Source of the DNA: Lachnospiraceae bacterium | GTDB lineage: Bacteria; Bacillota; Clostridia; Lachnospirales; Lachnospiraceae | Assembly: GCA_015057585.1 (NCBI GenBank) | Contig: SVEF01000002.1 | Coordinates: 124,001 to 188,000 of the forward strand | DNA: 64,000 nucleotides | Reading direction: 5' to 3' | Shown here: one piece after another, positions 30,158 through 45,888 of the stretch | Numbering within the stretch: the first letter of the stretch is position 1 | Layout: each line of letters begins with the position of its first letter | Notes under the pieces: generated by a model | Database searches by the model: none | What the model saw: the letters and a program-made list of their open reading frames with translations, nothing else | Told to the model about the DNA's origin: nothing | Made by a program: the position numbers and the translations under genes

Positions 30158-30937
30158 ATGAACAATAAAAATAAGACCAGTAAGATTCCAAAATGGGCAT
30201 GGCTGATGATTTCGCTTGCGACCGCCATGGTATTGTGGTATGTATTGTCGCTGATTCCAAAGACTTCACGAAGCTTCCCTAATTTAGTAGTAACATTCAA
30301 ATCAGTGTTTACTATGATTGAGAGAGAAGTATTCTGGAAGGACATTAGCAGCAGCTTGATTTCCGTTGTGGCAGGTTTTGCAATCGGCTTTGTATTATCA
30401 CTGCCGGCAGCAATTCTGATGGCATGGTATGGACCGGTCCGCAACATTATTGAGCCATGGATTCAGTTTATTCGTAATATTCCACCTTTGGCATATGTTC
30501 CACTGGTTGTTATTTCGGCAGGTGTTGGTAGAAAATCACAGATTATCGTTATTACGATTGCAACATTCCTGATTATGACGGTTACAATTTATCAGGGTGT
30601 AATCAACGTGGATGAGACATTGATTAAGGCTGCAAGAGTCCTTGGTGCGACAGATAAGGATATTTTCCTGAAGGTAATTGCACCGGCAACTTTACCGTTC
30701 ATCATCACTGCAATCCGTCTGGGCAGCTCTACTGCATTGACCACCTTAATTGCAGCGGAATCGACCGGTGCGATAGCGGGCCTGGGTATGAGAATCCGTT
30801 CCTTAAACAACTCGTTTGAATCTGCACCGATGTTACTGTACATCATTATCATTGGTATTATCGGTATGTTGATTGAAAAATTAGTGAAATTTATAGAGAG
30901 GAGATTCACAGGATGGCAGGAGAAGAGAGAAGTGTAA
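30158..30937 (+). CDS. ABC importer permease, sulfonate/nitrate/taurine type
   Basis: A 259-aa protein with about six membrane helices and the conserved cytoplasmic EAA loop (KAARVLGATDKDIFLKVIAPATLP). The organisation, with a single permease gene, matches SsuC/TauC/ThiX-type importers for small molecules such as sulfonates, nitrate or thiamine precursors. AAGGAG precedes the ATG. It overlaps the ATPase gene by 25 bases. First gene of a long co-directional run extending to 45888. Confidence 0.9.
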   Translation: MNNKNKTSKIPKWAWLMISLATAMVLWYVLSLIPKTSRSFPNLVVTFKSVFTMIEREVFWKDISSSLISVVAGFAIGFVLSLPAAILMAWYGPVRNIIEPWIQFIRNIPPLAYVPLVVISAGVGRKSQIIVITIATFLIMTVTIYQGVINVDETLIKAARVLGATDKDIFLKVIAPATLPFIITAIRLGSSTALTTLIAAESTGAIAGLGMRIRSLNNSFESAPMLLYIIIIGIIGMLIEKLVKFIERRFTGWQEKREV

Positions 30938-31704
30938 AAGTTAAGATTGATAACGTGCGTAAAGTGTATGACACCAGAAACGGTGAAATGATTGCATTAA
31001 ACGGCGTGGATCTTGATATTAAAGAAAACGAATTTATTTGTGTGGTAGGTCCTTCCGGTTGTGGAAAATCCACTCTGTTAAATATTATCGCCGGATTACT
31101 GGAGCCTACTTCCGGAGCAGTTTACTGTGACGGTAAGGAAGTTAAGGGTACAGGTACCGAGCGAGGCGTGGTATTCCAGCAGTATGCATTGTTCCCATGG
31201 ATGACGGTAAAGAAAAACGTAATGTTTGGCCTGAATTTAAAGGGTATCAAGGGAAAAGAAGCAGAAGAAATCGCCATGAAGTACATAAAAATGGTTCAGC
31301 TGGAGGATTTCGTGGACCATTATCCAAAGGAACTTTCCGGTGGTATGAAGCAGCGTGTGGCAATCGCCAGAGCGTATGCGGTTAACCCATCCATTCTTCT
31401 GATGGACGAGCCGTTCGGTGCGCTGGATGCACAGACCAGAACACAGCTTCAGCAGGAACTTCTGGAAACATGGGAAAAGGAACAGAAGACATGTTTCTTT
31501 ATCACACATGACGTAGATGAAGCGATTATTCTTGCGCAGAAGGTTATCATTATGAGTGCGAGACCGGGACGTATTAAGGAAATCGTAGATATTAACATTC
31601 CTTATCCGCGTACTCAGGAAACGAAGATGACACCAGAATTCTTAGAATTAAAGAATCATATCTGGAGTCAGGTATACCAGGAATATCTGGAAGTAAGAAA
31701 GTAA
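30913..31704 (+). CDS. ABC importer ATPase, sulfonate/nitrate/taurine type
   Basis: A 263-aa protein with GPSGCGKST (Walker A), QQYALFPWM (Q-loop), LSGGMKQR (signature), LLMDEPFGALD (Walker B plus D-loop) and FFITHDVDEA (switch His). It lacks the TOBE extension, as usual for the SsuB/TauB group. Its start lies inside the permease gene with AGAGAGGAG upstream. Forms the importer with the permease before and the binding protein after. Confidence 0.92.
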   Translation: MAGEERSVKVKIDNVRKVYDTRNGEMIALNGVDLDIKENEFICVVGPSGCGKSTLLNIIAGLLEPTSGAVYCDGKEVKGTGTERGVVFQQYALFPWMTVKKNVMFGLNLKGIKGKEAEEIAMKYIKMVQLEDFVDHYPKELSGGMKQRVAIARAYAVNPSILLMDEPFGALDAQTRTQLQQELLETWEKEQKTCFFITHDVDEAIILAQKVIIMSARPGRIKEIVDINIPYPRTQETKMTPEFLELKNHIWSQVYQEYLEVRK

Positions 31705-31767
31705 CCGATAACATTGCCGGAAAGATCCGGCTAAGATAAATGTTATAAAATGAGGAGGAACAAAACA

Positions 31768-32760
31768 ATGAAAAAGAGAATTTTAGGTTTAGTAATGGCA
31801 GTTATTATGATTGCCGGCATGTTCGTAGGATGCGGCAAGAGTAACGGTGACAAAATCGTATTAAATGTTGCTTACATGCCAAACTACGGTAGCCTTTGGG
31901 CAATCGAAAATGCAATTGAACAGGGTTATTTGGCAGAAGAAGGTATTGAAGTTGTTTTAACTGAGTTCCAGGATGGTCCTACTATCATCGCAGCTATGGA
32001 AAGTGGTACAATTGATGTTGGTTATATCGGACAGGGTGCTCATAAGCTTTGTATCAATGGCAGAGCTTCCATCTTTGCATTATCCCACATCTCCAATGGT
32101 GATGCTTTAATCGGTGGCCCTGGCATCAAGAAGGTAGAAGACCTCAAGGGTAAGAAGGTTGCTTATTCTTCTGGTACATCCAGTGAAGATATCTTAGTAA
32201 ACTCCTTAAAGAAGGCCGGCATGACAATGAATGATATTCAGGCATTTGATATGGATGCTTCCGCAATCGTTACAGCTATGTTATCCGGTGGTGTAGACGC
32301 TTGTGCTACATGGTCTCCAAACAGCTTAAAGATTTTAGAAGAACTTGACGGTGCTACAAAGTTAACAGATAACATGACATTCGCAGACGAGACAGTTTCT
32401 CTTGCAAGCTGGATCGTAATGCCGAAGTATGCAGAAGAGAACAGAGAAGTTCTTGTTAAGTTCACAAGAGCATTATTTAAGGCTATGGACTACGCAGCAA
32501 AGGATCATCAGGATGAAACGGCTGCTTTAATCGCAAAGCAGATTGCACAGGATAAGGATGGCGTTTACAATCAGCGTGGTGATGCTAATTGGTTAACAGG
32601 TAAGGAAGTTGCAGCAGGTGCAGCAGATGGTACTGTAGAAGGTTACTACGAACTTCAGAAGCAGACATTTGTAAATGCAGGTGCAGTTGAAAAGGATCCT
32701 GTTCCGGCAGTAAGCGATTATGTACTCTTAGATCTTATGATCGAGGCAGGTAAGTACTAA
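31768..32760 (+). CDS. Substrate-binding lipoprotein, SsuA/NMT1-like
   Basis: A 330-aa protein; ATG 31768 is chosen because AGGAGGAAC lies just upstream (ATG 31750 has no such site). The signal ends in a lipobox (FVGC). The mature part shows the NMT1/SsuA pattern: [13 protein letters not shown], then GYLAEEGIEV, GTIDVGYIGQGAH and ATWSPNS. The same domain, clearly paralogous (about 54 of 85 aligned N-terminal residues identical by my count), is fused to a chemoreceptor at 41984. Ligand unknown: a sulfonate, a nitrogenous small molecule or a thiamine precursor are all possible for the family. Confidence 0.9.
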   Translation: MKKRILGLVMAVIMIAGMFVGCGKSNGDKIVLNVAYMPNYGSLWAIENAIEQGYLAEEGIEVVLTEFQDGPTIIAAMESGTIDVGYIGQGAHKLCINGRASIFALSHISNGDALIGGPGIKKVEDLKGKKVAYSSGTSSEDILVNSLKKAGMTMNDIQAFDMDASAIVTAMLSGGVDACATWSPNSLKILEELDGATKLTDNMTFADETVSLASWIVMPKYAEENREVLVKFTRALFKAMDYAAKDHQDETAALIAKQIAQDKDGVYNQRGDANWLTGKEVAAGAADGTVEGYYELQKQTFVNAGAVEKDPVPAVSDYVLLDLMIEAGKY

Positions 32761-32859: not shown

Positions 32860-33678
32860 ATGCATGAATATTATTACTATAATCGGGAACAACTTTTAGA
32901 TTCTCCAAAGATTCCACTGATTGTGATGGAAGATAATCCGACTGTTTTCAAAGCGCTTGCTCAGGAAATGGTGGATGAGATTAAGAGAAAAAATGCATTG
33001 GGTGAAAAGACGGTATTTATTTGTCCTGTCGGACCGGTAGGTCAGTACCCGTATTTCGTAGAAATGGTAAACGAAGAAAATATCAGTCTGAAGGATGTCT
33101 GGTTCATCAATATGGACGAGTACCTGACAGACGATAAGCAGTGGATTCCAAAGGAGCACAGATTAAGTTTCCGGGGCTTTATGGACCGCACTGTATATAC
33201 AAAGGTAAAACCGGAGCTGGTAATGCCGGAAGAGCAGAGAGTATTTCCGGATCCGAACAATGTAACTTATATTCCGGAGCTGATTGAAAAACTCGGTGGC
33301 GTGGATATCTGCTTTGGCGGTATCGGCATCAATGGTCACGTGGCATTCAATGAGCCGGATGACAGCTTAACCCCGGAAGAATTTTTGGCACAGAAGACAA
33401 GAGTACTTCCAATCGCAAAGGAGACCAGAGCGGTAAACTCTATCGGCGATTTAAACGGAGCATTGGATGATATGCCTCATTACTGTATCACTATCGGCAT
33501 TAATGAAATTGCAAATGCAAGAAAGATTCGTCTCGGATGCTTCAGAGACTGGCACAGAAGTGTGGTAAGACATGCGGCATATGGTGAAAAGAGTGCGCAT
33601 TTCCCTGTTTCTCTGTTACAGGGTCATGCAGATATTAGTATTCGTTTCACTGAGTTTGTGGCAAATCTCCCGGAATAA
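32860..33678 (+). CDS. NagB-like amino-sugar phosphate isomerase/deaminase
   Basis: A 272-aa protein of the glucosamine-6-phosphate deaminase family. INMDEYL carries the ring-opening Asp; GINGHVAFNEP carries the catalytic His and Glu (the preceding Asn is the usual Firmicutes variant). The C-terminal half (FRDWHRSVVRHAAYG) differs from housekeeping NagB, so the substrate may be a relative of glucosamine 6-phosphate, such as galactosamine 6-phosphate or a modified amino sugar. It is followed after 13 bases by a NagA-like gene, giving a deacetylation-deamination pair. Confidence 0.83.
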   Translation: MHEYYYYNREQLLDSPKIPLIVMEDNPTVFKALAQEMVDEIKRKNALGEKTVFICPVGPVGQYPYFVEMVNEENISLKDVWFINMDEYLTDDKQWIPKEHRLSFRGFMDRTVYTKVKPELVMPEEQRVFPDPNNVTYIPELIEKLGGVDICFGGIGINGHVAFNEPDDSLTPEEFLAQKTRVLPIAKETRAVNSIGDLNGALDDMPHYCITIGINEIANARKIRLGCFRDWHRSVVRHAAYGEKSAHFPVSLLQGHADISIRFTEFVANLPE

Positions 33679-33691
33679 GGAGTGAAGGAAA

Positions 33692-34837
33692 ATGAAGGAT
33701 TGTTATATAATCAACGGTTCGGTATATGTTGACCGGACCTTTACCGAAAAGACCATCATGGTACAGAATGGAAAAATTAAATTACTGGATGCCGGCAGCA
33801 CAGTTCCGGCAGAGGCGGTGGTATATGATGTTGCCGGGAAAAAGATAGTACCGGGATTTATTGATGTTCATACACACGGTTCCGTAGGTGTGGATGTCAA
33901 TGCGGCTACAGCAGAAGATTTAGAGAAAATCTGTCGTTTTGTGGCAAAGAACGGTACGACATCCTGGTTCTGCTCCGTGCTTACTGACACAAAGGAGCAG
34001 ACAGAATGGTGTATCGATGAGTTTAAGAAGCATCAGAAGATGGAATCGGAGGGGGCAAACCTGTTGGGTATCCATCTGGAGGGTCCGTTTTTATCCACAG
34101 AGTACAAGGGAGCCATGCCGGAGCATCTTTTGATGAAGCCTAATATGCAGCTTTTGGAAGAATATCAGGCGAGAGCAGAGGGAAATATCAAATACATTAC
34201 GATTTCACCGGAAGTGGAAGGAATTGCAGATGATATTCCGAAGATGAATCAGCTTGGAATTACAGTGGCTATCGGACATTCGGGTGCGGACTACGATACA
34301 AGCTGGAAAGCGATTAATAACGGTGCGGAATGCTGTACGCATACGTTTAATGCGATGAAACTGTTACATCAGCATTTTCCGGCAATTATGGGAGCGGCAT
34401 TAGAGTCGGATATCTATTGTGAAGCGATTTGTGACGGAAGACATCTTCATCCGGGAACAGTAAGACTCTTAATCAAAACCAAAGGAATCGATAAGGTGGT
34501 TGCCATCACGGATTCTATTATGGCAGCAGGATTACCGGATGGAAATTACAAATTAGGCGTGAATGATGTTGTGGTAAAAGACGGTGATGCAAAGCTTGCA
34601 GATACCGGTGTCCGTGCGGGAAGTACCTTGACACAGAATGTTGCATTGAAAAATCTTCTTGCATTTACCGGACGTCCGCTGGAAGAGATTTTACTTCTTC
34701 TCACAGAGAACCCTGCAAAACTGTTAAAGGTTTTTGATACCAAGGGTTCCATCGCAGACGGAAAGGACGCAGATCTCGTTGTTCTGGACGACGCAAATGA
34801 CATTGCGGATGTCTTTGTGGGCGGAAGAAAAATATAA
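33692..34837 (+). CDS. nagA: N-acetylglucosamine-6-phosphate deacetylase-like enzyme
   Basis: A 381-aa amidohydrolase. Metal and catalytic residues are visible: DVHTHG, HLEGPFL (Glu), IGHSGAD (His), CTHTFNAM (His) and ITDSIMAAG (catalytic Asp). The enzyme removes acetate from N-acetyl amino-sugar 6-phosphates in the cytoplasm. Paired with the NagB-like gene just upstream (AAGGAGTG ribosome site between them). GlcNAc-6-P is the default substrate; GalNAc-6-P or a modified sugar is possible. Gene symbol given by family, not by proven substrate. Confidence 0.88.
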   Translation: MKDCYIINGSVYVDRTFTEKTIMVQNGKIKLLDAGSTVPAEAVVYDVAGKKIVPGFIDVHTHGSVGVDVNAATAEDLEKICRFVAKNGTTSWFCSVLTDTKEQTEWCIDEFKKHQKMESEGANLLGIHLEGPFLSTEYKGAMPEHLLMKPNMQLLEEYQARAEGNIKYITISPEVEGIADDIPKMNQLGITVAIGHSGADYDTSWKAINNGAECCTHTFNAMKLLHQHFPAIMGAALESDIYCEAICDGRHLHPGTVRLLIKTKGIDKVVAITDSIMAAGLPDGNYKLGVNDVVVKDGDAKLADTGVRAGSTLTQNVALKNLLAFTGRPLEEILLLLTENPAKLLKVFDTKGSIADGKDADLVVLDDANDIADVFVGGRKI

Positions 34838-34911: not shown

Positions 34912-36450
34912 ATGCTGATTTTGCTCGCGGTTATTTTAGTGATTATTTCTATATGGATGGCAGTGGCGAAAAAGACAAGGGAATCCGGGTATCTGGTGGG
35001 ACTTTGTGTCAGTCTGCTGCTTGAAATTTGTGGAATTATGATTTTTATTGCCAAAAAAGGCGGTGTTTCGTCAGAACTGTTACCTCTTTTTTACTTTACA
35101 AAAAAAATAAAAACAGAGGTACAGTATCTGATGATTACATTAAATCAACTTGGTTTTTTAGTAGTACTCGGACGTACTCTGTTTCCGTTTTTTTTGGCGG
35201 AACTTGCCATCGGCTATTCGATGGTCGGCTGGGTTCGGCAAAAGCCATGGTTGCCGGTTGCCGTAGGAGGATTCCCGGTGATTACTCTGGCTTTGTATCT
35301 GCCGGGAGTTTATCGGGCGATGACATCGCAAGAGTCGGATATCAGCATGTATTTAAACGGATTTGCTATGGGATGGATGACGTTCTATATTATTGCGTCT
35401 ATCGTTTTACTGTTCTATGAGCAATTTGCGGTTTCTTTTAAGTTTGCAAAACGGCAATTGCGTTATATTGTGGTTTGTCTGGCTTCCATGACCGGAATTT
35501 ATCTGTTGTTTTATGTACAGGATCCGGGGCAGATTTATTATTTTTACAATTATTCTTTCCGATGGATGAGTGATGCGACCTACATGAGGGTGAATGCACC
35601 GTGGCATGCGTATGTGTTATTGATTGGCGGATGTACGGTTTGCTGCATTATGGGGTTTGGAAGTCTGTATCGTTTTACCCGTCTTCATTTTGAAACAGAC
35701 AAAGAAGATGTGGTTCTGGAGCGAAAGTTTGATACAGCAAAGATTGGCGCCTCTACATTTGTCCACAGTATGAAAAACCAGTTATTGTCCAGTAAAGTTA
35801 TTTTCAAACGAATCGGACAAGCATATGAACAGCCGCAGGTCGATGTGGCAAAGATTAAAGAATACGTAGATACTTTAGAAGAATTTAACAATGCAATGCT
35901 GACCAGAATGGAGGAACTATACAGTTTTGTAAAATCCAATTCCATTTACATGGTACCAACAAGCATGGAAGACATTGCAGAAGACGCCTTGCAGCGGTTT
36001 CGCAGAAAATATCCTACGGGGCAGATTGATGTTTCGCTGGAAGGTGAAATGTGGATTCTTTCCGATAAGATACATTTGTGTGAGGCATTGTACAATTTGC
36101 TTGTCAATGCACAGGAAGCAGTGGATGGTGCAGACAGAGGAGAAACCGGCAAGGTCACGTTGTCCTGCTACAGCAGGAGGCAATATGCAGTCATTGAAAT
36201 CAGTGACAACGGAATCGGTATTGCGAAGAGCCATTTAAAAAAGATATTCGACCCGTTTTATTCCAGTAAAAATTCTAATTCGAACTGGGGAATGGGATTG
36301 TATTATGTAAGAGAAATTGTAAAGAGCCATCTGGGGACATTGCAGGTGGAGAGTAAAGTAGGAGAAGGAAGTAAAATATACATTCTGCTCCCACGTTATG
36401 ACAGTTATAACAGTGACCGTAAAAATCAGAAGGTAGGTAAGCATGAATAA
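34912..36450 (+). CDS. Sensor histidine kinase with N-terminal multi-pass membrane domain
   Basis: A 512-aa protein. Residues ~1-260 contain about seven membrane helices with no large external domain. The kinase core follows: FVHSMKNQL (probable phospho-acceptor His, atypical H-box), NLLVNAQEAV (N box), DNGIGI (G1), FDPFYSSK (F box) and GMGLYYV (G2). Its stop overlaps the response-regulator start by eight bases (ATGAATAA), so they are a cognate pair. Placed inside the catabolic run between the Nag-type and glycolysis-type genes, it may sense the imported substrate or membrane state. Confidence 0.87.
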   Translation: MLILLAVILVIISIWMAVAKKTRESGYLVGLCVSLLLEICGIMIFIAKKGGVSSELLPLFYFTKKIKTEVQYLMITLNQLGFLVVLGRTLFPFFLAELAIGYSMVGWVRQKPWLPVAVGGFPVITLALYLPGVYRAMTSQESDISMYLNGFAMGWMTFYIIASIVLLFYEQFAVSFKFAKRQLRYIVVCLASMTGIYLLFYVQDPGQIYYFYNYSFRWMSDATYMRVNAPWHAYVLLIGGCTVCCIMGFGSLYRFTRLHFETDKEDVVLERKFDTAKIGASTFVHSMKNQLLSSKVIFKRIGQAYEQPQVDVAKIKEYVDTLEEFNNAMLTRMEELYSFVKSNSIYMVPTSMEDIAEDALQRFRRKYPTGQIDVSLEGEMWILSDKIHLCEALYNLLVNAQEAVDGADRGETGKVTLSCYSRRQYAVIEISDNGIGIAKSHLKKIFDPFYSSKNSNSNWGMGLYYVREIVKSHLGTLQVESKVGEGSKIYILLPRYDSYNSDRKNQKVGKHE

Positions 36451-37117
36451 AAAAATTAGAATTTTGATTGCTGACGATTTTTCGTTGCTGCGGGAAGATA
36501 TGATAGAATTGATTAACAGACAGCCGGACATGGAAGTGGTCGGCGAAGCATCCTCCGGCAGGGAAATCGTAGAGCTTGCCAAAAAAACAGAATTTGACCT
36601 GATTTTAATGGATATAGAGATGGAACAGACCAATACCGGTATCCTTGCGGCAGAACGGATTAAGCAGGAGAAACCGGGAGGAGAAATCATTTTTCTCACA
36701 GCACACGAAACCAAGGAGATGATTGTAACGGCAATGGGAGTCGGTGCGGTGGATTATCTGGTAAAGGGCTGTTCGGAAGAAGAAGTGCTACATCACATCC
36801 GGTGTGCGTACGAGGGACATCCGGTGATGGAAAGCAAGGTGCATGAAACAGTCATGCAGGAATATGCCCGGCTACGGAAAAGTGAACAAAGCCTGCTGTT
36901 CTTTATTACCAATCTGTCACAGCTGACAGCCACGGAACGGCAGATGATTAAACTGTTTTTGCAGGGATATAAGACAACGGAAATAGCAAAAGTACGTTGT
37001 GTGGAATACAGCACCGTAAAGACACAAGTCAAAGGACTTTTACGGAAGTTTGGCTGTTCGAGAACAACGGAAATTGTGGAAATGATTCGAAATTTAAATA
37101 TTGAGCATTTATTTTAA
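36443..37117 (+). CDS. Response regulator, NarL/LuxR type
   Basis: A 224-aa protein. Receiver domain (1-120): acidic pair in ILIADDF, phospho-acceptor Asp in LILMDIEM, Thr in FLTAHE, Lys in YLVKG. The C-terminal HTH (~155-215) reads LTATERQMIKLFLQGYKTTEIA, as in LuxR-type domains, although the recognition-helix region (VEYSTVKTQV) is somewhat divergent. Partner of the upstream kinase. Likely regulates the operon it sits in. Confidence 0.9.
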   Translation: MNKKIRILIADDFSLLREDMIELINRQPDMEVVGEASSGREIVELAKKTEFDLILMDIEMEQTNTGILAAERIKQEKPGGEIIFLTAHETKEMIVTAMGVGAVDYLVKGCSEEEVLHHIRCAYEGHPVMESKVHETVMQEYARLRKSEQSLLFFITNLSQLTATERQMIKLFLQGYKTTEIAKVRCVEYSTVKTQVKGLLRKFGCSRTTEIVEMIRNLNIEHLF

Positions 37118-37158
37118 CATAGAGAAAATCCGGTAGTGAAACCGACGGAGGAATGGAT

Positions 37159-38322
37159 ATGGGAGACAATCTATTGATTATGCATGGCGGCGGCCCGACG
37201 GCAGTTATTAATGCTTCGCTTTACGGGGCAATCCGCGAAGCAAAACAGCACAAAGAGTTGGAACATATTTATGCGGCGAAGAACGGAACGGGCGGCTTGC
37301 TCAGGGAAGAGTTGATTGAACTTGAGCATATTCCGGAGGAAAAACTGGCGCTCCTGTTACAGACACCGGGAAGTGCAATCGGTACTTCAAGAGACCAATT
37401 GGAGCAGGAAGAATATGACCGTATGGTGGAGGTTCTTCAGAAGTACAACATTAAGTATGTGCTGATGAATGGCGGAAACGGAACGATGGATACCTGCGGA
37501 AAACTTTATAAAACCTGTATGCAAAAGGGACTTGATATTAAGGTCATGGGCATTCCGAAGACGATGGATAATGATATTGCCATCACAGACCACAGCCCTG
37601 GATTTGGCAGTGCTGCAAAATATATTGCACAGAGTGTGAAAGAAGTTTGTGCGGACGTCAAAGGACTTCCGATTCATGTAGTTGTCATCGAAGCATCCGG
37701 TAGAAATGCCGGCTGGATTACAGCAGCAAGTGCCATGGCGGCGGACAAAGACGGTGTGGGACCGGATTTGATTTATCTTCCGGAACGGCCGTTTGATGAA
37801 GACAAATATATTGAAGATATCAAAAGATTGCTTGAGAAAAAGAAGGGCATTGTGGTTGTTGCCAGCGAAGGATTAAAAAATGCGGACGGACAACCGATTG
37901 TCGAACCGATTTTTAAGGTTGGAAGAGCGACTTATTTTGGCGATGTCAGTGCGCACCTGGCAAATTTGGTTATTAAACGGCTGGGTTATAAAGCAAGAAG
38001 TGAGAAGCCGGGATTGCTTGGCAGAGCCTCGATTCCTTTACAGAGCAGTGTGGACAGAGAAGAAGCGGAACTGGCAGGAAAGCTTGCATGTGAGGCTGTG
38101 TTGAACGGCACGGCCGGAAAAATGGTGGCTTTCAGAAGAGTGAGCACGAGTCCATATAAAATGGAACCGTTCCTTGTGGACATTGACGAAGTGATGATGT
38201 ATGAGCGCACTATGCCGGATGAATATATCAATGAGGAAGGAAACGGTGTGACGGAGGCTTTCAGGGAGTGGTGCAGACCATTGCTTGGACATGAACTTCC
38301 GGAGATGATTTCGTTTAATTAA
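37159..38322 (+). CDS. 6-phosphofructokinase-family kinase
   Basis: A 387-aa protein. ATG 37159 lies seven bases after GGAGG; ATG 37153 is too close to it. HGGGPTAVINA is the phosphoryl-donor loop; the active-site segments are NGGNGTMDT and PKTMDNDI. In the family, Gly at position 104 goes with ATP use and Lys at 124 (PKT) with pyrophosphate use; this protein has the Gly-Lys mix, so the donor is unclear. The Asn in GGNGT replaces a magnesium-coordinating Asp. It phosphorylates a ketose 6-phosphate, feeding the adjacent aldolase. The substrate could be fructose-, tagatose- or a modified ketose 6-phosphate. Confidence 0.85.
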   Translation: MGDNLLIMHGGGPTAVINASLYGAIREAKQHKELEHIYAAKNGTGGLLREELIELEHIPEEKLALLLQTPGSAIGTSRDQLEQEEYDRMVEVLQKYNIKYVLMNGGNGTMDTCGKLYKTCMQKGLDIKVMGIPKTMDNDIAITDHSPGFGSAAKYIAQSVKEVCADVKGLPIHVVVIEASGRNAGWITAASAMAADKDGVGPDLIYLPERPFDEDKYIEDIKRLLEKKKGIVVVASEGLKNADGQPIVEPIFKVGRATYFGDVSAHLANLVIKRLGYKARSEKPGLLGRASIPLQSSVDREEAELAGKLACEAVLNGTAGKMVAFRRVSTSPYKMEPFLVDIDEVMMYERTMPDEYINEEGNGVTEAFREWCRPLLGHELPEMISFN

Positions 38323-38370: not shown

Positions 38371-39525
38371 ATGTTAGTACCTATGAGAGCAATTTTAGAA
38401 GCTGCAGACAAATACGATTACGCGCAGGGTGCATTCAATGTGAATGCAGTATGTCAGGCAAAGGCAGTAATCAACGTACATGAAATGTTCAGAAGCCCGG
38501 CTATTTTACAGGGAGCTGACCTTGCAAACGGTTTTATGGGCGGACGCACTGACTTTATGAATGCCACATTAGAAGACAAGAAAAAGGGTGCAAAGAATAT
38601 CGCGGATGCTGTAAAGAAGTATGGTACCGACAGTGCGATTCCGATTGCCCTTCACTTAGACCACGGCAAAAACTTCGATTCCTGCGTAGCAGCGATCGAA
38701 GGCGGTTATACAAGTGTTATGATCGATGGAAGCCATCTTCCGTTTGATGAAAATGTAGAACTTACAAGAGAAGTTGTAAAGTATGCCCATGAAAGAGGTG
38801 TTTCTGTCGAGGGTGAACTTGGTGTGTTAGCCGGTGTAGAAGATCATGTATTTTCCGCTAACAGTACATATACCAATCCGGCCAGTGCAATTGAATTTTT
38901 CCGTAAGACCGGTGTAGATGCTTTGGCAATCAGTTACGGAACCATGCATGGTGCCAATAAGGGTAAGAATGCGGTAATCCGTAAAGAAATTGCCATTGCG
39001 ATTAAGGAAACCATGCGTCATGAAGGCATTGAAGGTTATCTGGTAAGCCATGGTTCTTCGACCGTTCCGCAGTATATCGTAGAGGAAATCAATGGTCTGG
39101 GCGGCGAACTTGTCAACACTTATGGAATTGATGTAAACCAGTTGATTGAAGCAGGCCATTGCGGCATTAACAAAATCAACGTAGATACGGATATCCGTCT
39201 TGCGGTTACCAGAAACATGAAGGAATTGTTCGCAAGGGAAAAGGCGTTGCAGAACAGTGCATCCATCGGCGCTATTTATGAACTTCTGGAAAAGAACAAG
39301 GCTGCGTTTGACCCAAGAGTATTCCTTCCGCCGATTATGGATACGGTGATGTTTGGAAACATTCCGGATGATGATGTGGCAAGAATCTGTAAGTGCGTGG
39401 AAGACGGTGTGAAAGAAGTTGTAGGTACTCTGATTGTAAAATTCGGAAGCTACGGAAAAGCACCAAAGGTAGAACTTACCACTTTGGATGAAATGGCAGA
39501 CCGTTACAAAAAAGCAGGTATTTAA
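38371..39525 (+). CDS. Class II fructose/tagatose-bisphosphate aldolase-like enzyme
   Basis: A 384-aa protein with the zinc-aldolase pattern: AFNVNA near the N-terminus, HLDHGKNFDS (zinc His), DGSHLPFDEN, LVSHGSSTV and NVDTDIRLA (phosphate binding). It is longer than the typical short class II enzyme (~285 aa), with an extra C-terminal region. Class II aldolases cleave ketose bisphosphates to dihydroxyacetone phosphate and an aldehyde. Between a PFK-like and a TIM-like gene, it makes up a private lower-glycolysis module. GGAGGAAG precedes the ATG. Confidence 0.88.
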   Translation: MLVPMRAILEAADKYDYAQGAFNVNAVCQAKAVINVHEMFRSPAILQGADLANGFMGGRTDFMNATLEDKKKGAKNIADAVKKYGTDSAIPIALHLDHGKNFDSCVAAIEGGYTSVMIDGSHLPFDENVELTREVVKYAHERGVSVEGELGVLAGVEDHVFSANSTYTNPASAIEFFRKTGVDALAISYGTMHGANKGKNAVIRKEIAIAIKETMRHEGIEGYLVSHGSSTVPQYIVEEINGLGGELVNTYGIDVNQLIEAGHCGINKINVDTDIRLAVTRNMKELFAREKALQNSASIGAIYELLEKNKAAFDPRVFLPPIMDTVMFGNIPDDDVARICKCVEDGVKEVVGTLIVKFGSYGKAPKVELTTLDEMADRYKKAGI

Positions 39526-40412: not shown

Positions 40413-41900
40413 ATGAAACTTGATTTTGAATATGGCCATGGGCTTATGACAGCGGAATTGCCGGATAATACCGACGTTTTTATTCCGGGTGAAACGGTAA
40501 AGGATCCGGACTTTATTCCGGTAGATAAGTTAGAAGAAGCTTATTTGGAGAGTCTTGCACATCCGATTGGAATGCCGACTTTGACAGAACTTGCACACAA
40601 GGGCAGTACGGTAACATTTATTGTTCCTGACCGTGTAAAGGGTGGCGAACAGGAAACCAGCCACAGAAAATTAAGTATCAAGTATATTTTAAGAGAGTTA
40701 TATGCAGCGGGCGTAGAAAAGAAAGACATTCTTTTTATTATCTCGAACGGCCTGCACCCAAGAAGTAAGGAATCCGATGCAAAGGCATTGTTCGGACCGG
40801 AGCTGTTCAATGAGTTCTGGCCAACCGGACAGATTATCAGCCATGACAGTGAAGACTATGAGCATATGGTTGACCTTGGTGTAACACGCAGAGGTGACCC
40901 GGTTCTCATGAACAAGTATGTTTTTGAGTGCGACATTCCGATTTTAATCGGTCATGTACAGGGAAATCCTTACGGTGGTTATTCGGGTGGCTACAAGCAC
41001 AGTGCAACCGGTATTACCCATTGGAAGAGCATTGCAAGCCATCATGTGCCATCTGTTATGCACAGAGATGACTTCACACCGGTAAACGGCGCGAGTCTCA
41101 TGCGTAACAAGTTTGATGAAATCAGTATGCACATGGAAGAAAAGATGGGACATCCGTTCTTCTGTTGTGATGCGGTACTGGATACCTCTTCCAGACAGAT
41201 TGCTATTTTCTCCGGCTATGCAAAAGAGATGATGCCAAAGAGCTGGGAAGTGGCAGATAAGAGAACTTATGTACACTGGGCAGAAAAGAAGTATGATGTT
41301 TTGGTATTCGGTATGCCGCAGAAGTTCCACTACGGTGATGGTATGGGAACAAACCCAATCATGATGATGCAGGCACTCAGCGCACAGGTACTTCGTTTCA
41401 AGAGAATTATGAGTGATAACTGTGTTATTATCTGTTCTTCTATTTGTAACGGATACTTCCACGATGAGTTATGGCCATATTTAAGAGAAACCTACGAACT
41501 GTTCCAGCATGATCATATGGATACCTTGCCGGATATGAACCGTTATGGTGAATATTTTGCCACAAACGAAGAATATATCCGCAAATACCGTTTTACCAAC
41601 GCATTCCATCCGTTCCATGGTTTTTCCATGATGTCCTGCGGACACATTGCGGAGATGAATACAAGTGCGATTTATATTGTAGGCGCACAGGATCCGGGCT
41701 ATGCAAGAGGCATGGGTTTAAAGACAAGAGCTACTTTTGAAGAGGCGTTAGAGGATGCCAAGAAGAAATTTGTAGGACAGAATCCAAATATTCTTGCGCT
41801 TCCGATGACCTTTAAAAAGTCGGCAGTGCATCTTTGTATGAAGAATCCGGCGGATGACTGTATGGATGCTTACGGACATCGCGGAGGATGTTGCGAGTAA
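40413..41900 (+). CDS. LarA-like (nickel-pincer racemase family) protein
   Basis: A 495-aa protein of the lactate racemase family. VPDRVKGG corresponds to the DHTRP region, SNGLHPRS to the His108 region of Lactiplantibacillus LarA, and the glycine-rich GGYSGGYK carries the nickel-pincer Lys184, with a His in ASHH matching nickel ligand His200. The second catalytic base, His174, aligns with Asn in QGNPYGGY (by eye). LarA homologues act on different 2-hydroxy acids. No larB, larC or larE cofactor genes are in the window. In the operon after the TIM-like gene it may isomerise a hydroxy-acid end product. Confidence 0.75.
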   Translation: MKLDFEYGHGLMTAELPDNTDVFIPGETVKDPDFIPVDKLEEAYLESLAHPIGMPTLTELAHKGSTVTFIVPDRVKGGEQETSHRKLSIKYILRELYAAGVEKKDILFIISNGLHPRSKESDAKALFGPELFNEFWPTGQIISHDSEDYEHMVDLGVTRRGDPVLMNKYVFECDIPILIGHVQGNPYGGYSGGYKHSATGITHWKSIASHHVPSVMHRDDFTPVNGASLMRNKFDEISMHMEEKMGHPFFCCDAVLDTSSRQIAIFSGYAKEMMPKSWEVADKRTYVHWAEKKYDVLVFGMPQKFHYGDGMGTNPIMMMQALSAQVLRFKRIMSDNCVIICSSICNGYFHDELWPYLRETYELFQHDHMDTLPDMNRYGEYFATNEEYIRKYRFTNAFHPFHGFSMMSCGHIAEMNTSAIYIVGAQDPGYARGMGLKTRATFEEALEDAKKKFVGQNPNILALPMTFKKSAVHLCMKNPADDCMDAYGHRGGCCE

Positions 41901-41983: not shown

Positions 41984-43915
41984 ATGAACTTGTTTAAAAG
42001 AAAAAAACCAATCAGTATGACGGAAACGAGCCAGGGAGAAGGAAAAGAACTTCGCGAGTTTTCAAAGAGAATTCTCAAAAACACGGAAACATTGAATGAG
42101 AATGTAATGCAACTGAACTATATTGCGGGAAGTACGAACAATGCGGTAAAGGCGGTCAATGGTTCTATCAATGAAATCAGCGACAGCAATAATGTGTTAT
42201 CCAGAAATATCAGTGAGATACGTGGCATTTCCATGGAGATGGGCGAAAATATTGATGCAAATATTGAGAACGTAGAAAAACTTACTTATGCAGCGGATCA
42301 GATGACAACGAGCATCGGTAAGGTAATGCAGAATTTTATTGAACTGGTAGAAAGTAACAGGGAGACCGCGCAGGGCATCGAAGAGGTTGCGGTAAACACA
42401 CAATTAACATATGATGCAGCGCAAGAGATTTTGGTTGCAATACAGCTGATTAATGAAATTGCAAATAAGACGAATTTACTCAGTCTGAATGCCTCTATCG
42501 AAGCAGCGAGAGCGGGCGAGGCCGGACGTGGTTTTGCGGTTGTTGCAAAGCAGATTCAGGAACTTGCGGAAAAGAGCCGGGGCAGTGCAGAGAATATCGG
42601 ACGGATTATTCGGGAATTGGAAGAAAAATCAAATAAGTCCGTTGTTAGTATTCAAAGAATCCAGGAAGCATCCAAAAAGCAGACGGAGAACTTAACGGAT
42701 ATCAAAGGCTTTTTGGAGTTGACCGATCAAAACATTGATCAGGTACGTGAGTGTGTCCAGATTGTGGAAGAAAACATGGATAAACTGGATTCGTCTAAAA
42801 ATACAATTATCCAGAACATGGAAGATTTGGAACGTCTCGGAACCAATAATTCCGAGGCGGCAGAAATGATTGTTTCCGATTTTGAGAAGGTGGTAAAGAA
42901 CACCGGAAAAATTACGGAAATGGCATTTGAACTTGCTGATGTCGGAGAAGGGTTGAAACATACGGCAGAAGCGTATGACAACAAGGTTCAGGCAGAACGC
43001 AAGCCGGTACATATCCGTGTCGGATACATGCCGAACTACGGAAGCCTCTGTTCGATTGTGGCGGCAATCAAGCAGGGCTATATGGCGAATGAAAATATTA
43101 CGGTAGAATTAAAGGAATATGAGAACGGACCAAAGATTATTGCGGCAATGAAGGAAGGTACGCTGGATGTCGGATATATCGGTCATGGTGCACACAAACG
43201 TTGTATCCAGGGCGATGCAGTAGTATTTTTGCTGTCTCATATCTCCAATGCGGAAGCAGTCATCGGACACAGAAGCAGTGGAGTGCGTAACCTGAAGGCA
43301 TTACAGGGAATGCGTATCGGTACAATGGAAGGAACCACCAGTGATGCGATTTTAAATTTTGCACTGGACAGTGTAGGTGTCAGCAGGGATGAATGTGTTA
43401 TTGTGAATGAGACACCGGACGAAATTGTACGTGATATGATTGCCGGAAAACTGGATGCATGTGCACTCTGGTCGCCATATACATTGGAAGTAATGAACAA
43501 ACTTGGAAACAATGCCGTGCTTTTGGCAAATAATATGAACTTCTCTAACCGTTTGGTATCGTTATCCTCATGGATTACCACACCGGAGTTCGCAAAAGAG
43601 AAAAAGGAAGAACTGGTACGGTTTACGAGAGCTTTGTATCGCGGTATGAACTATCGTGCGGCAGAAGGCAATATGCGTAAGGTGGCAACCTGGGTTTCTG
43701 AGTTCTCCAAAATGGATGCCCAGAAAGCATATGAACAGAGACAGGATGCGGAATGGTCGACTTCCGGTTATGTTGCCATCGGTGCAAAGGACGGAACGAT
43801 TGAACAGTTGTATACGACGCAGCAGGAACTGTTCCGCAAGGTGGGAGAAATCAATGTTACTGTTCCGGTCCGCGACTATGTACTTATTGATAATATGATT
43901 GAAGCTGCAAAATAA
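41984..43915 (+). CDS. Soluble chemoreceptor fused to an SsuA-like binding domain
   Basis: A 643-aa protein without signal peptide, transmembrane helix or HAMP domain. Residues ~20-335 form the long helical hairpin of a methyl-accepting chemotaxis protein, with the tip [18 protein letters not shown] and [11 protein letters not shown] (156-190) that contacts CheA and CheW. Residues ~343-643 are an NMT1/SsuA-type binding domain ([20 protein letters not shown]), a clear paralogue of the lipoprotein at 31768. The receptor therefore senses, inside the cell, the ligand imported by that transporter, or one like it. The position of the sensor at the C-terminus is unusual. GGGAGAA precedes the ATG. 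Confidence 0.88.
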
Positions 43916-43930: not shown

Positions 43931-44725
43931 ATGATGACAGTAGCGGTAATTTTATTTATTGTATGTATTTTGGCGTCCAGCATCGGTGCTGTTGTTGGTG
44001 CCGGAGGCGGAGTAATTATTAAGCCTGTCCTTGATATGATAGGAATTTTACCGGTGTCTACGGTAAGTTTTTGTTCCGGCTGTACGGTACTCGGCATGTC
44101 GGTTTGCTCGCTGATTAGAAACAGGAACGATGGTGTGAAGTTGCGCCTGAAAACAAGTACGGCACTGGCAATCGGAGCAGTGCTTGGTGGGCTGGTCGGT
44201 AAATGGCTGTTTGAAATTGTGCGTAACGGATTTGGGAATGAGAGAGTCCTGGGAGCTATTCAGGCGATCTGTCTTACCATTATCACCATTGGTGTATTTG
44301 TATATGTTTGCAACAAAGATAAGTTGCCGTCGAAGAATGTGAAAAATTTCGGGGTTGCTGTTGTTATTGGTGTTTTTCTCGGAATTATCTCCTCATTTTT
44401 GGGAATCGGCGGGGGAACCAGTAATGTTGCTGTTTTGTTTTTCTTCTTTTCCATGGAGGCAAAGGAGGCAGCAAAAAATTCAATCTATATTATTATTTTC
44501 TCGCAGATTTCGAGTATCATATCCGCTTTTGCGACAGCGTCCGTTCCGGATTTTGAATGGTTGCATCTGTTATTTATGGTGATTGGTGGCATTGGTGGTG
44601 CTCTGATCGGTGCAGCTGTTTCAAAGAGAATTGATAACAAGGGCGTAGAAAAGATTTTGCGCATTCTGTTATTGGTGATTATTGCAATTGATTTTTACAA
44701 TGTCTTAAAATATACTATTTTGTAG
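43931..44725 (+). CDS. TauE/SafE family membrane permease
   Basis: A 264-aa protein with about eight helices in two halves. The TauE/SafE repeats are visible: SSIGAVVGAGGGVIIKP in the first half and SSFLGIGGGTSNVAVLF in the second. Members export sulfite, sulfoacetate or other sulfur-containing anions, but many have no known substrate. It starts 15 bases after the chemoreceptor gene. Together with an SsuABC-type importer it hints at a sulfonated substrate. Confidence 0.85.
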   Translation: MMTVAVILFIVCILASSIGAVVGAGGGVIIKPVLDMIGILPVSTVSFCSGCTVLGMSVCSLIRNRNDGVKLRLKTSTALAIGAVLGGLVGKWLFEIVRNGFGNERVLGAIQAICLTIITIGVFVYVCNKDKLPSKNVKNFGVAVVIGVFLGIISSFLGIGGGTSNVAVLFFFFSMEAKEAAKNSIYIIIFSQISSIISAFATASVPDFEWLHLLFMVIGGIGGALIGAAVSKRIDNKGVEKILRILLLVIIAIDFYNVLKYTIL

Positions 44726-44754: not shown

Positions 44755-45888
44755 ATGAAAACATCGGGTATGAAAACAAGAAAGATGGTTCTTGCATCTT
44801 TCTTTTTGGTTTTGGGAATTGTGTTACCGTTTTTTACGGGGCAGATTCCCGAAATAGGGAATATGCTTCTGCCGATGCATCTTCCGGTATTGCTTTGCGG
44901 TTTTATCTGCGGATGGCAGTACGGGCTCATAGTGGGGGCAATGACACCTTTGGTACGCAGTTTGTGGTTTGGTATGCCTCATCTTTTGCCGAATGCCGTT
45001 GGAATGGCAGTGGAACTGGGGGTATATGGTCTATGTGCGGGAGTACTCGGTCGGAAATTCGGCCGGAAACTGACCGGGATTTATCCGGCGCTTTTTCTTA
45101 CGATGATTTCCGGACGTCTGGCATGGGGCATGGCTTCTTTCGTTTTGTTCCGTATGCTGGGGAATTCGTTTACATGGAAAATTTTCTTCGCGCAAAGTGT
45201 GATCAATGCGGTACCGGGAATTGTGTTGCAACTGATACTGGTTCCTGTGATAGTCCGGCTGATTCCGCGGGAACATATGTTAAACATAAAGAACAGCTGC
45301 ATCCGGCGATTTGAGCCGGTGGTGACTGAAATACGCAGATTGCTGGAGGACCCGGAAAAGAAGATTATTTTAGTTGCAATTGACGGGAAATGTGCGAGCG
45401 GAAAATCTACGCTTGGCTATTATTTGAAGAACCGGTTTGATGCCAACCTGTTTCATATGGACGATTTCTTTTTGCAGAAGCATCAGCGTACGGAGGAACG
45501 TTTTGTACAGGTGGGCGGAAATGTAGATTATGAGCGTTTTAAGGAACAGGTGTTAACTCCGCTTTTGGAAGGAAAAGAAATTACTTATCAGCGATTTGAC
45601 TGTGGCAGTTTGGAATTGCAGGCAGCAAAGCAGATGAAACCGAAACGTCTGAATATTATTGAGGGATCATACAGTCAGCATCCTTATTTTGGTGAGGTGT
45701 ATGATTTGAAAGTATTTATGGAAATTGACCCGGAAAGTCAGTTGAAAAACATTGAAAAGAGAAACGGCGTGAAAAAATTGCAGATGTTCAAAGAAAAGTG
45801 GATTCCGAAGGAGACAGCGTACTTTGAAGCATTTGGTATTAAAGAAAAGAGCGACCTTGTGATTGCATGGACAAACTTGGTGCAGTGA
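44755..45888 (+). CDS. ECF-transporter S component fused to a uridine-kinase-like kinase
   Basis: A 377-aa fusion protein with AGGAGGT before the ATG. Residues ~8-172 have five to six membrane helices with the pattern LPMHLPVLLCGFICGWQYG, typical of vitamin-type ECF S components (substrate-capturing subunit). Residues ~200-377 are a P-loop kinase: DGKCASGKST (~210-219), FHMDDFFL and IIEGSYSQHP, as in nucleoside or uridine kinase families. The fusion suggests that a vitamin or nucleoside-like compound is captured and phosphorylated on entry. No EcfA or EcfT genes are nearby; shared modules elsewhere are expected. It is the last plus-strand gene before a terminator. Confidence 0.83.
   Translation: MKTSGMKTRKMVLASFFLVLGIVLPFFTGQIPEIGNMLLPMHLPVLLCGFICGWQYGLIVGAMTPLVRSLWFGMPHLLPNAVGMAVELGVYGLCAGVLGRKFGRKLTGIYPALFLTMISGRLAWGMASFVLFRMLGNSFTWKIFFAQSVINAVPGIVLQLILVPVIVRLIPREHMLNIKNSCIRRFEPVVTEIRRLLEDPEKKIILVAIDGKCASGKSTLGYYLKNRFDANLFHMDDFFLQKHQRTEERFVQVGGNVDYERFKEQVLTPLLEGKEITYQRFDCGSLELQAAKQMKPKRLNIIEGSYSQHPYFGEVYDLKVFMEIDPESQLKNIEKRNGVKKLQMFKEKWIPKETAYFEAFGIKEKSDLVIAWTNLVQ

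Follow-up and report, generated by a model that had tools for sequence, protein, structure and literature searches.

In the MalE-Tar and RbsB-Trg systems, a separate periplasmic binding protein docks on a transmembrane receptor. Receptors also occur in the cytoplasm; TlpD is one of these, with a C-terminal CZB domain, and senses at its C-terminal end. To our knowledge, the ligands of most cytoplasmic chemoreceptors are unknown. Signaling by solute-binding proteins (SBP) through receptors has been described (PMC9602780), and cytoplasmic receptors are found in many species, such as TlpT of Rhodobacter sphaeroides (PMC3964821). CmpC and NrtC carry a cytosolic C-terminal SBP-like domain that is related to the SBP of their own transporter and is thought to sense the intracellular solute (PMC11349869, PMC6603209). 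An importer-family SBP used as a cytosolic gauge and a receptor located in the cytoplasm are each already known; what appears to be new here is their combination on a chemoreceptor, for which we found no precedent. A literature search of limited journal coverage returned no chemoreceptor that joins an MCP hairpin to a cytosolic SBP sensor, and none of the cytoplasmic chemoreceptors described there has a full SBP as its sensor. In this study, we consider it fairly probable that the receptor described below, a soluble chemoreceptor with a captured SBP, senses in the cytosol a small molecule linked to the neighboring gene cluster and tunes swimming through CheA.

The gene lies in a stretch of 64,000 nucleotides of Lachnospiraceae DNA, called the window (Table 1). 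Its product is a soluble chemoreceptor with an SBP domain behind the MCP hairpin. Residues 129-282 match Pfam MCPsignal (E 8.8e-27; 94.5 bits against a gathering score of 34.6), and residues 357-560 and 340-571 match NMT1 (E 5.8e-19) and NMT1_2 (E 1.5e-13), both above their gathering scores. The original prediction, made from the letters of the DNA, had placed the hairpin tip at residues 156-190 and an NMT1/SsuA-type domain at 343-643, and these limits agree closely with ours. As it had also stated, the protein contains no transmembrane segment; the maximal 19-residue Kyte-Doolittle mean is 1.12, against 2.46 for the signal peptide of the importer's lipoprotein SBP, and no signal peptide was found either. 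The protein has both the soluble character of a cytoplasmic chemoreceptor and the two-lobed fold of the NMT1/SsuA type. It is the only one of the 19 MCPs of the host genome without transmembrane segments, each of the other 18 having at least two hydrophobic segments, and its tip resembles the tips of these 18. The genome also holds four CheW-domain matches, one of them within a 734-residue frame of CheA size. The sensor domain is 45% identical to the lipoprotein (137/302 residues, E 1e-86, BLASTP), whose gene begins 10.2 kb upstream, start to start, where a paralogue about 10 kb away had been foreseen. The original figure of about 54 identities in 85 N-terminal residues is likewise borne out, since a count by eye over the first 85 aligned columns of the BLASTP alignment gives 54.

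Table 1. Features of the fusion gene and of the surrounding cluster (positions in the window)
Feature	Position	Strand	Basis
Gene of the MCP-SBP fusion, product of 643 aa lacking transmembrane segments	41984..43915	+	ORF translation, Pfam, hydropathy
MCP signaling hairpin, residues about 16-336, modeled as a pair of long antiparallel helices	42029..42991	+	AlphaFold (low confidence), Pfam
Hairpin tip, residues 156-191, expected CheA/CheW docking	42449..42556	+	comparison with other MCPs
C-terminal NMT1/SsuA-fold solute-binding domain, residues 342-643, predicted ligand sensor	43007..43912	+	Pfam, BLASTP, structure model
ABC importer permease	30158..30937	+	profile matches
ABC importer ATPase	30913..31704	+	profile matches
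Lipoprotein solute-binding protein of ABC importer, paralogue of sensor domain	31750..32760	+	profile matches, BLASTP
Divergent NagB-like sugar-phosphate isomerase/deaminase	32860..33678	+	below NCBIfam and Pfam cut-offs
NagA, N-acetylglucosamine-6-phosphate deacetylase	33692..34837	+	above TIGR00221 cut-off
Sensor histidine kinase of cluster	34912..36450	+	profile matches
Response regulator of cluster	36443..37117	+	profile matches
Phosphofructokinase (PFK) paralogue	37153..38322	+	profile matches
Class II aldolase paralogue	38371..39525	+	profile matches
Triosephosphate-isomerase (TIM) paralogue, altered phosphate-gripping loop	39552..40388	+	sequence comparison
LarA-family 2-hydroxyacid racemase/epimerase	40413..41900	+	profile matches
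TauE/SafE-family permease, 15 bp past fusion stop; absent at some fusion loci	43931..44725	+	profile matches

The same fusion was found intact in six further genomes, which makes seven complete orthologues in seven genomes. Two are in Roseburia MAGs (L032 and L033, 63% and 70% identical over the full length) and came from a species-genome scan; genome searches added four from a second genus of this family (G375, G893, G905 and G894). The MCP half of an additional fusion, in G898, is cut by the contig end, and it is not counted among the seven. A search with the fusion alignment found none beyond the window's own in a class sample of 391 genomes and a phylum sample of 398. No transmembrane segment is present in any of the seven. 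The tip region of the window protein is 69-80% identical to those of the other six, and the N-terminal tail and the linker are the most variable regions. Estimates of dN/dS for the most similar pair, about 0.06 (MCP half) and 0.07 (SBP half), show that purifying selection maintains both halves. An assembly or sequencing error joining two genes had been named as a possible refutation; with seven complete fusions from separate assemblies that have uninterrupted frames and are under purifying selection, and of which those placed on a tree form one clade, we give this explanation virtually no credence.

The origin of the sensor domain was examined in a tree of four fusions and 21 free-standing SBPs, with weak support at its root and on its deepest branches. 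The fusion SBP domains form one clade apart from the free-standing SBPs (100/100), and this clade branches outside all of the transporter SBPs sampled (100/100). A recent duplication of the neighboring SBP is rejected by this tree, in which the weak deepest branches leave the age of the split unfixed. Judged by its position there, the sensor domain is an old paralogue of the transporter SBP, not a recent copy. The original description of it as a copy of the transporter's binding protein holds as to paralogy, at 45% identity, but not as to its place in the tree.

The AlphaFold model of the sensor domain alone is a two-lobed SBP (pLDDT 80), while the full-length model is of low confidence (pLDDT 62). 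The nearest solved structures are TauA and SsuA; proteins of the thiamine and HMP type come next, along with Thi5 and the regulatory domains that CmpC/NrtC carry in the cytosol (PDB 9uai, 9uak and 8wm7 among the matches). TauA and SsuA share the fold and most of the pocket layout with the sensor, but identity in the structural alignments is 17-19%. We mapped the ligand contacts of TauA (PMC6906117) onto the fusions through HMMER alignments; the resulting list of pocket positions is short, drawn from homology and partly of our own choice. The fusions hardly vary at these positions, where mean column entropy is 0.20, against 0.83 elsewhere. Met349, Asn351, Gly382, Gly400, Trp496 and the motif YIG.GAH of the pocket are identical in fusions and transporter SBPs, which also have the motifs MPNYGSL, SH.SN, WSP and SSW in common.

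The conservation of the pocket bears on the idea that the domain is a docking module, which would bind the cytosolic face of the transporter or another protein, so that the receptor would read transporter occupancy. NrtC and CmpC do show a cytosolic SBP-like domain working within a transporter complex, and some residues conserved in the transporter SBPs are lost in the fusions. However, conservation is higher in the assigned pocket than elsewhere in the domain, and SBPs normally dock on the outer face of the permease, out of reach of a cytosolic domain. We regard docking as improbable and favor a ligand-binding sensor.

The ligand is probably not a simple sulfonate, for either protein. Gln30, through which TauA binds sulfonates, aligns with Met in fusions and transporter SBPs alike; at the position of TauA Asp205, the fusions have Ser and the transporter SBPs mostly Ala. 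The sensor scores 94 bits against TIGR01728 (SsuA; cut-off 163.5) and 66.7 bits against TIGR01729 (taurine; cut-off 304), and with the change at Gln30 it falls outside the SsuA/TauA sulfonate-binding families. These results lend no support to sulfonates or taurine, which had first been named for binding tests. Because both groups have Met in place of Gln and most of the pocket in common, the sensor and the transporter SBP likely bind related compounds.

Several pocket positions nevertheless differ systematically between the two groups. All seven fusions have N381 (mostly D in the transporter SBPs), E424 (always D), Y499 (mostly N) and S528 (mostly A). Five sites are conserved within both groups with different residues, and two of them (381 and 424) are in the pocket, an enrichment (P about 0.01, hypergeometric count) that is suggestive only, since the pocket list is short and drawn from homology. 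As these positions differ in all of the fusions, the ligand of the receptor need not equal that of the transporter; the receptor may bind the substrate in a processed form or, with a different affinity, the ligand of the transporter itself. It is possible, though in our judgment doubtful, that the sensor binds a different cytosolic metabolite from the transporter, for example a phosphorylated or deacetylated intermediate, in which case the receptor would monitor catabolic flux and not uptake. The four fixed substitutions and the position of the fusion clade outside all transporter SBPs (see above) would fit such a role, but the rest of the pocket is common to both groups and most of the substitutions are conservative. 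The sensor may follow the imported substrate itself, as originally predicted; the frame of the pocket is preserved, but several positions in it differ systematically.

In all seven genomes, as far as contig ends and the fetched stretches allow this to be judged, the fusion lies in or beside one cluster: ABC permease, ATPase and lipoprotein SBP, NagB-like protein, NagA, histidine kinase, response regulator, PFK, class II aldolase, TIM and LarA. A response regulator gene was not seen at the G894 cluster. Gene order differs between two groups of fusion genomes, and the linkage of fusion and cluster has therefore survived rearrangement. This association with one import cluster is fixed, and the original view of a cytoplasmic receptor with a captured binding protein as its C-terminal sensor is supported as well. 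The cluster is more widespread than the fusion and extends to further genera and families within the order. CheW-domain genes were found in all searchable fusion genomes; four cluster carriers lack CheW, all of them without the fusion, and many carriers with CheW have no fusion either. Since many chemotactic genomes have the cluster alone, the fusion is dispensable for use of the substrate. In a genome of another family (G205; L056 2908-4620), a membrane-bound 4HB-type MCP directly adjoins the same cluster, which hints independently at a role of the cluster's substrate in chemotaxis. At another locus (L077 5589-7463), a 624-residue protein is encoded between the cluster SBP and histidine kinase genes, and no response regulator gene was seen in that cluster. 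The TauE gene directly follows the fusion at two loci only (the window and L032) and is missing there at L033 and at the g206 loci, so it is a weak sign of a sulfur compound. Further downstream in the window (44755-45888, and also L033 11955-13076) lies a gene that joins the S-component of an ECF transporter to a P-loop domain resembling uridine kinase.

The segment 32860-41900, near the NMT1-type importer, has the look of a glycolysis-like pathway dedicated to a modified amino sugar and is widespread in the order. NagA passes its curated cut-off, whereas NagB, aldolase, TIM and LarA score below equivalog cut-offs, and the PFK passes only a PPi-type subfamily model. The host genome also encodes a canonical TIM apart from that of the cluster. 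The cluster TIM retains its catalytic Lys, His and Glu motifs, but in loop 8 it has AL, followed by TR, instead of the phosphate-gripping GG, and in loop 7 GGG instead of GGS. The substrate of this TIM is probably not DHAP/G3P. The altered phosphate grip and the low-scoring enzymes point to a modified sugar with a terminal group other than phosphate; one guess would be an N-acetyl amino sugar that is sulfated or altered in some other way. No matching gene context was found in two papers on LarA (PMC11770544, PMC7583248).

Taken as a sensor of a cluster-linked compound, the receptor might have arisen and work as follows. An SBP would have lost its export signal and become fused behind an MCP hairpin, at the end away from the CheA/CheW tip. 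In the cytosol, its two lobes would bind the compound that is imported, or one of its early products, and close. This closure would be transmitted to the C-terminal hairpin helix, which runs to residue 336 in the low-confidence model, and would change CheA activity at the tip. Swimming would then be tuned by the amount of compound already taken up, rather than by the amount outside. Ligand binding, the identity of the ligand, coupling to CheA and the sign of the response are what we infer in this scheme. The canonical methylation consensus is absent from the window protein and from six of the seven fusions overall; it is present in most other MCPs of the genome, but 5 of the 18 lack it, so that its absence does not decide whether a protein is an MCP. 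The missing consensus makes it uncertain whether the receptor adapts and thus senses gradients in the ordinary way. The receptor may adapt weakly, and its action may be that of a bias governed by the internal metabolite level.

Histidine kinases with an NMT1 sensor domain (L086, L087 and L088, one of them a hybrid with PAS, receiver and Hpt domains) likewise use this family in a signaling protein, but their NMT1 domain is N-terminal and apparently extracytoplasmic, ahead of a predicted transmembrane segment, and their output is a kinase. Among the long frames inspected from the matches listed in an NMT1 search of 299 phylum genomes, the only fusions seen were to histidine kinases. In MalE-Tar and RbsB-Trg, as is expected here, the binding-protein family of a transporter gives ligand specificity; there it is a separate periplasmic protein, and in the fusion a covalent, cytosolic domain. 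TlpT and TlpD share with the fusion the soluble MCP hairpin. The cyanobacterial nitrate and bicarbonate transporter proteins NrtC and CmpC have a cytosolic C-terminal domain of the same NMT1/NrtA superfamily. Their domain is carried by the ABC ATPase and regulates uptake, whereas that of the fusion is carried by a chemoreceptor and should steer swimming; the fusion is an analogue of these proteins only, not a member of their type.

Judging from this layout, the cell may steer by the amount it has already imported, not by outside levels. Sensing of this kind is directly testable with the fusion. The internal ligand should be identifiable, because a sensor family with well-understood ligand chemistry, its paralogue and the pathway enzymes are together in one cluster. 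The balance seems to us about even for a wider reading, in which Roseburia-related gut bacteria captured a transporter-type SBP once as a cytosolic sensor for metabolism-dependent chemotaxis toward an amino-sugar-like compound, and the fusion is the first chemoreceptor counterpart of NrtC/CmpC. The fusion and NrtC/CmpC together suggest that the binding proteins of importers have been turned into internal gauges on more than one occasion.
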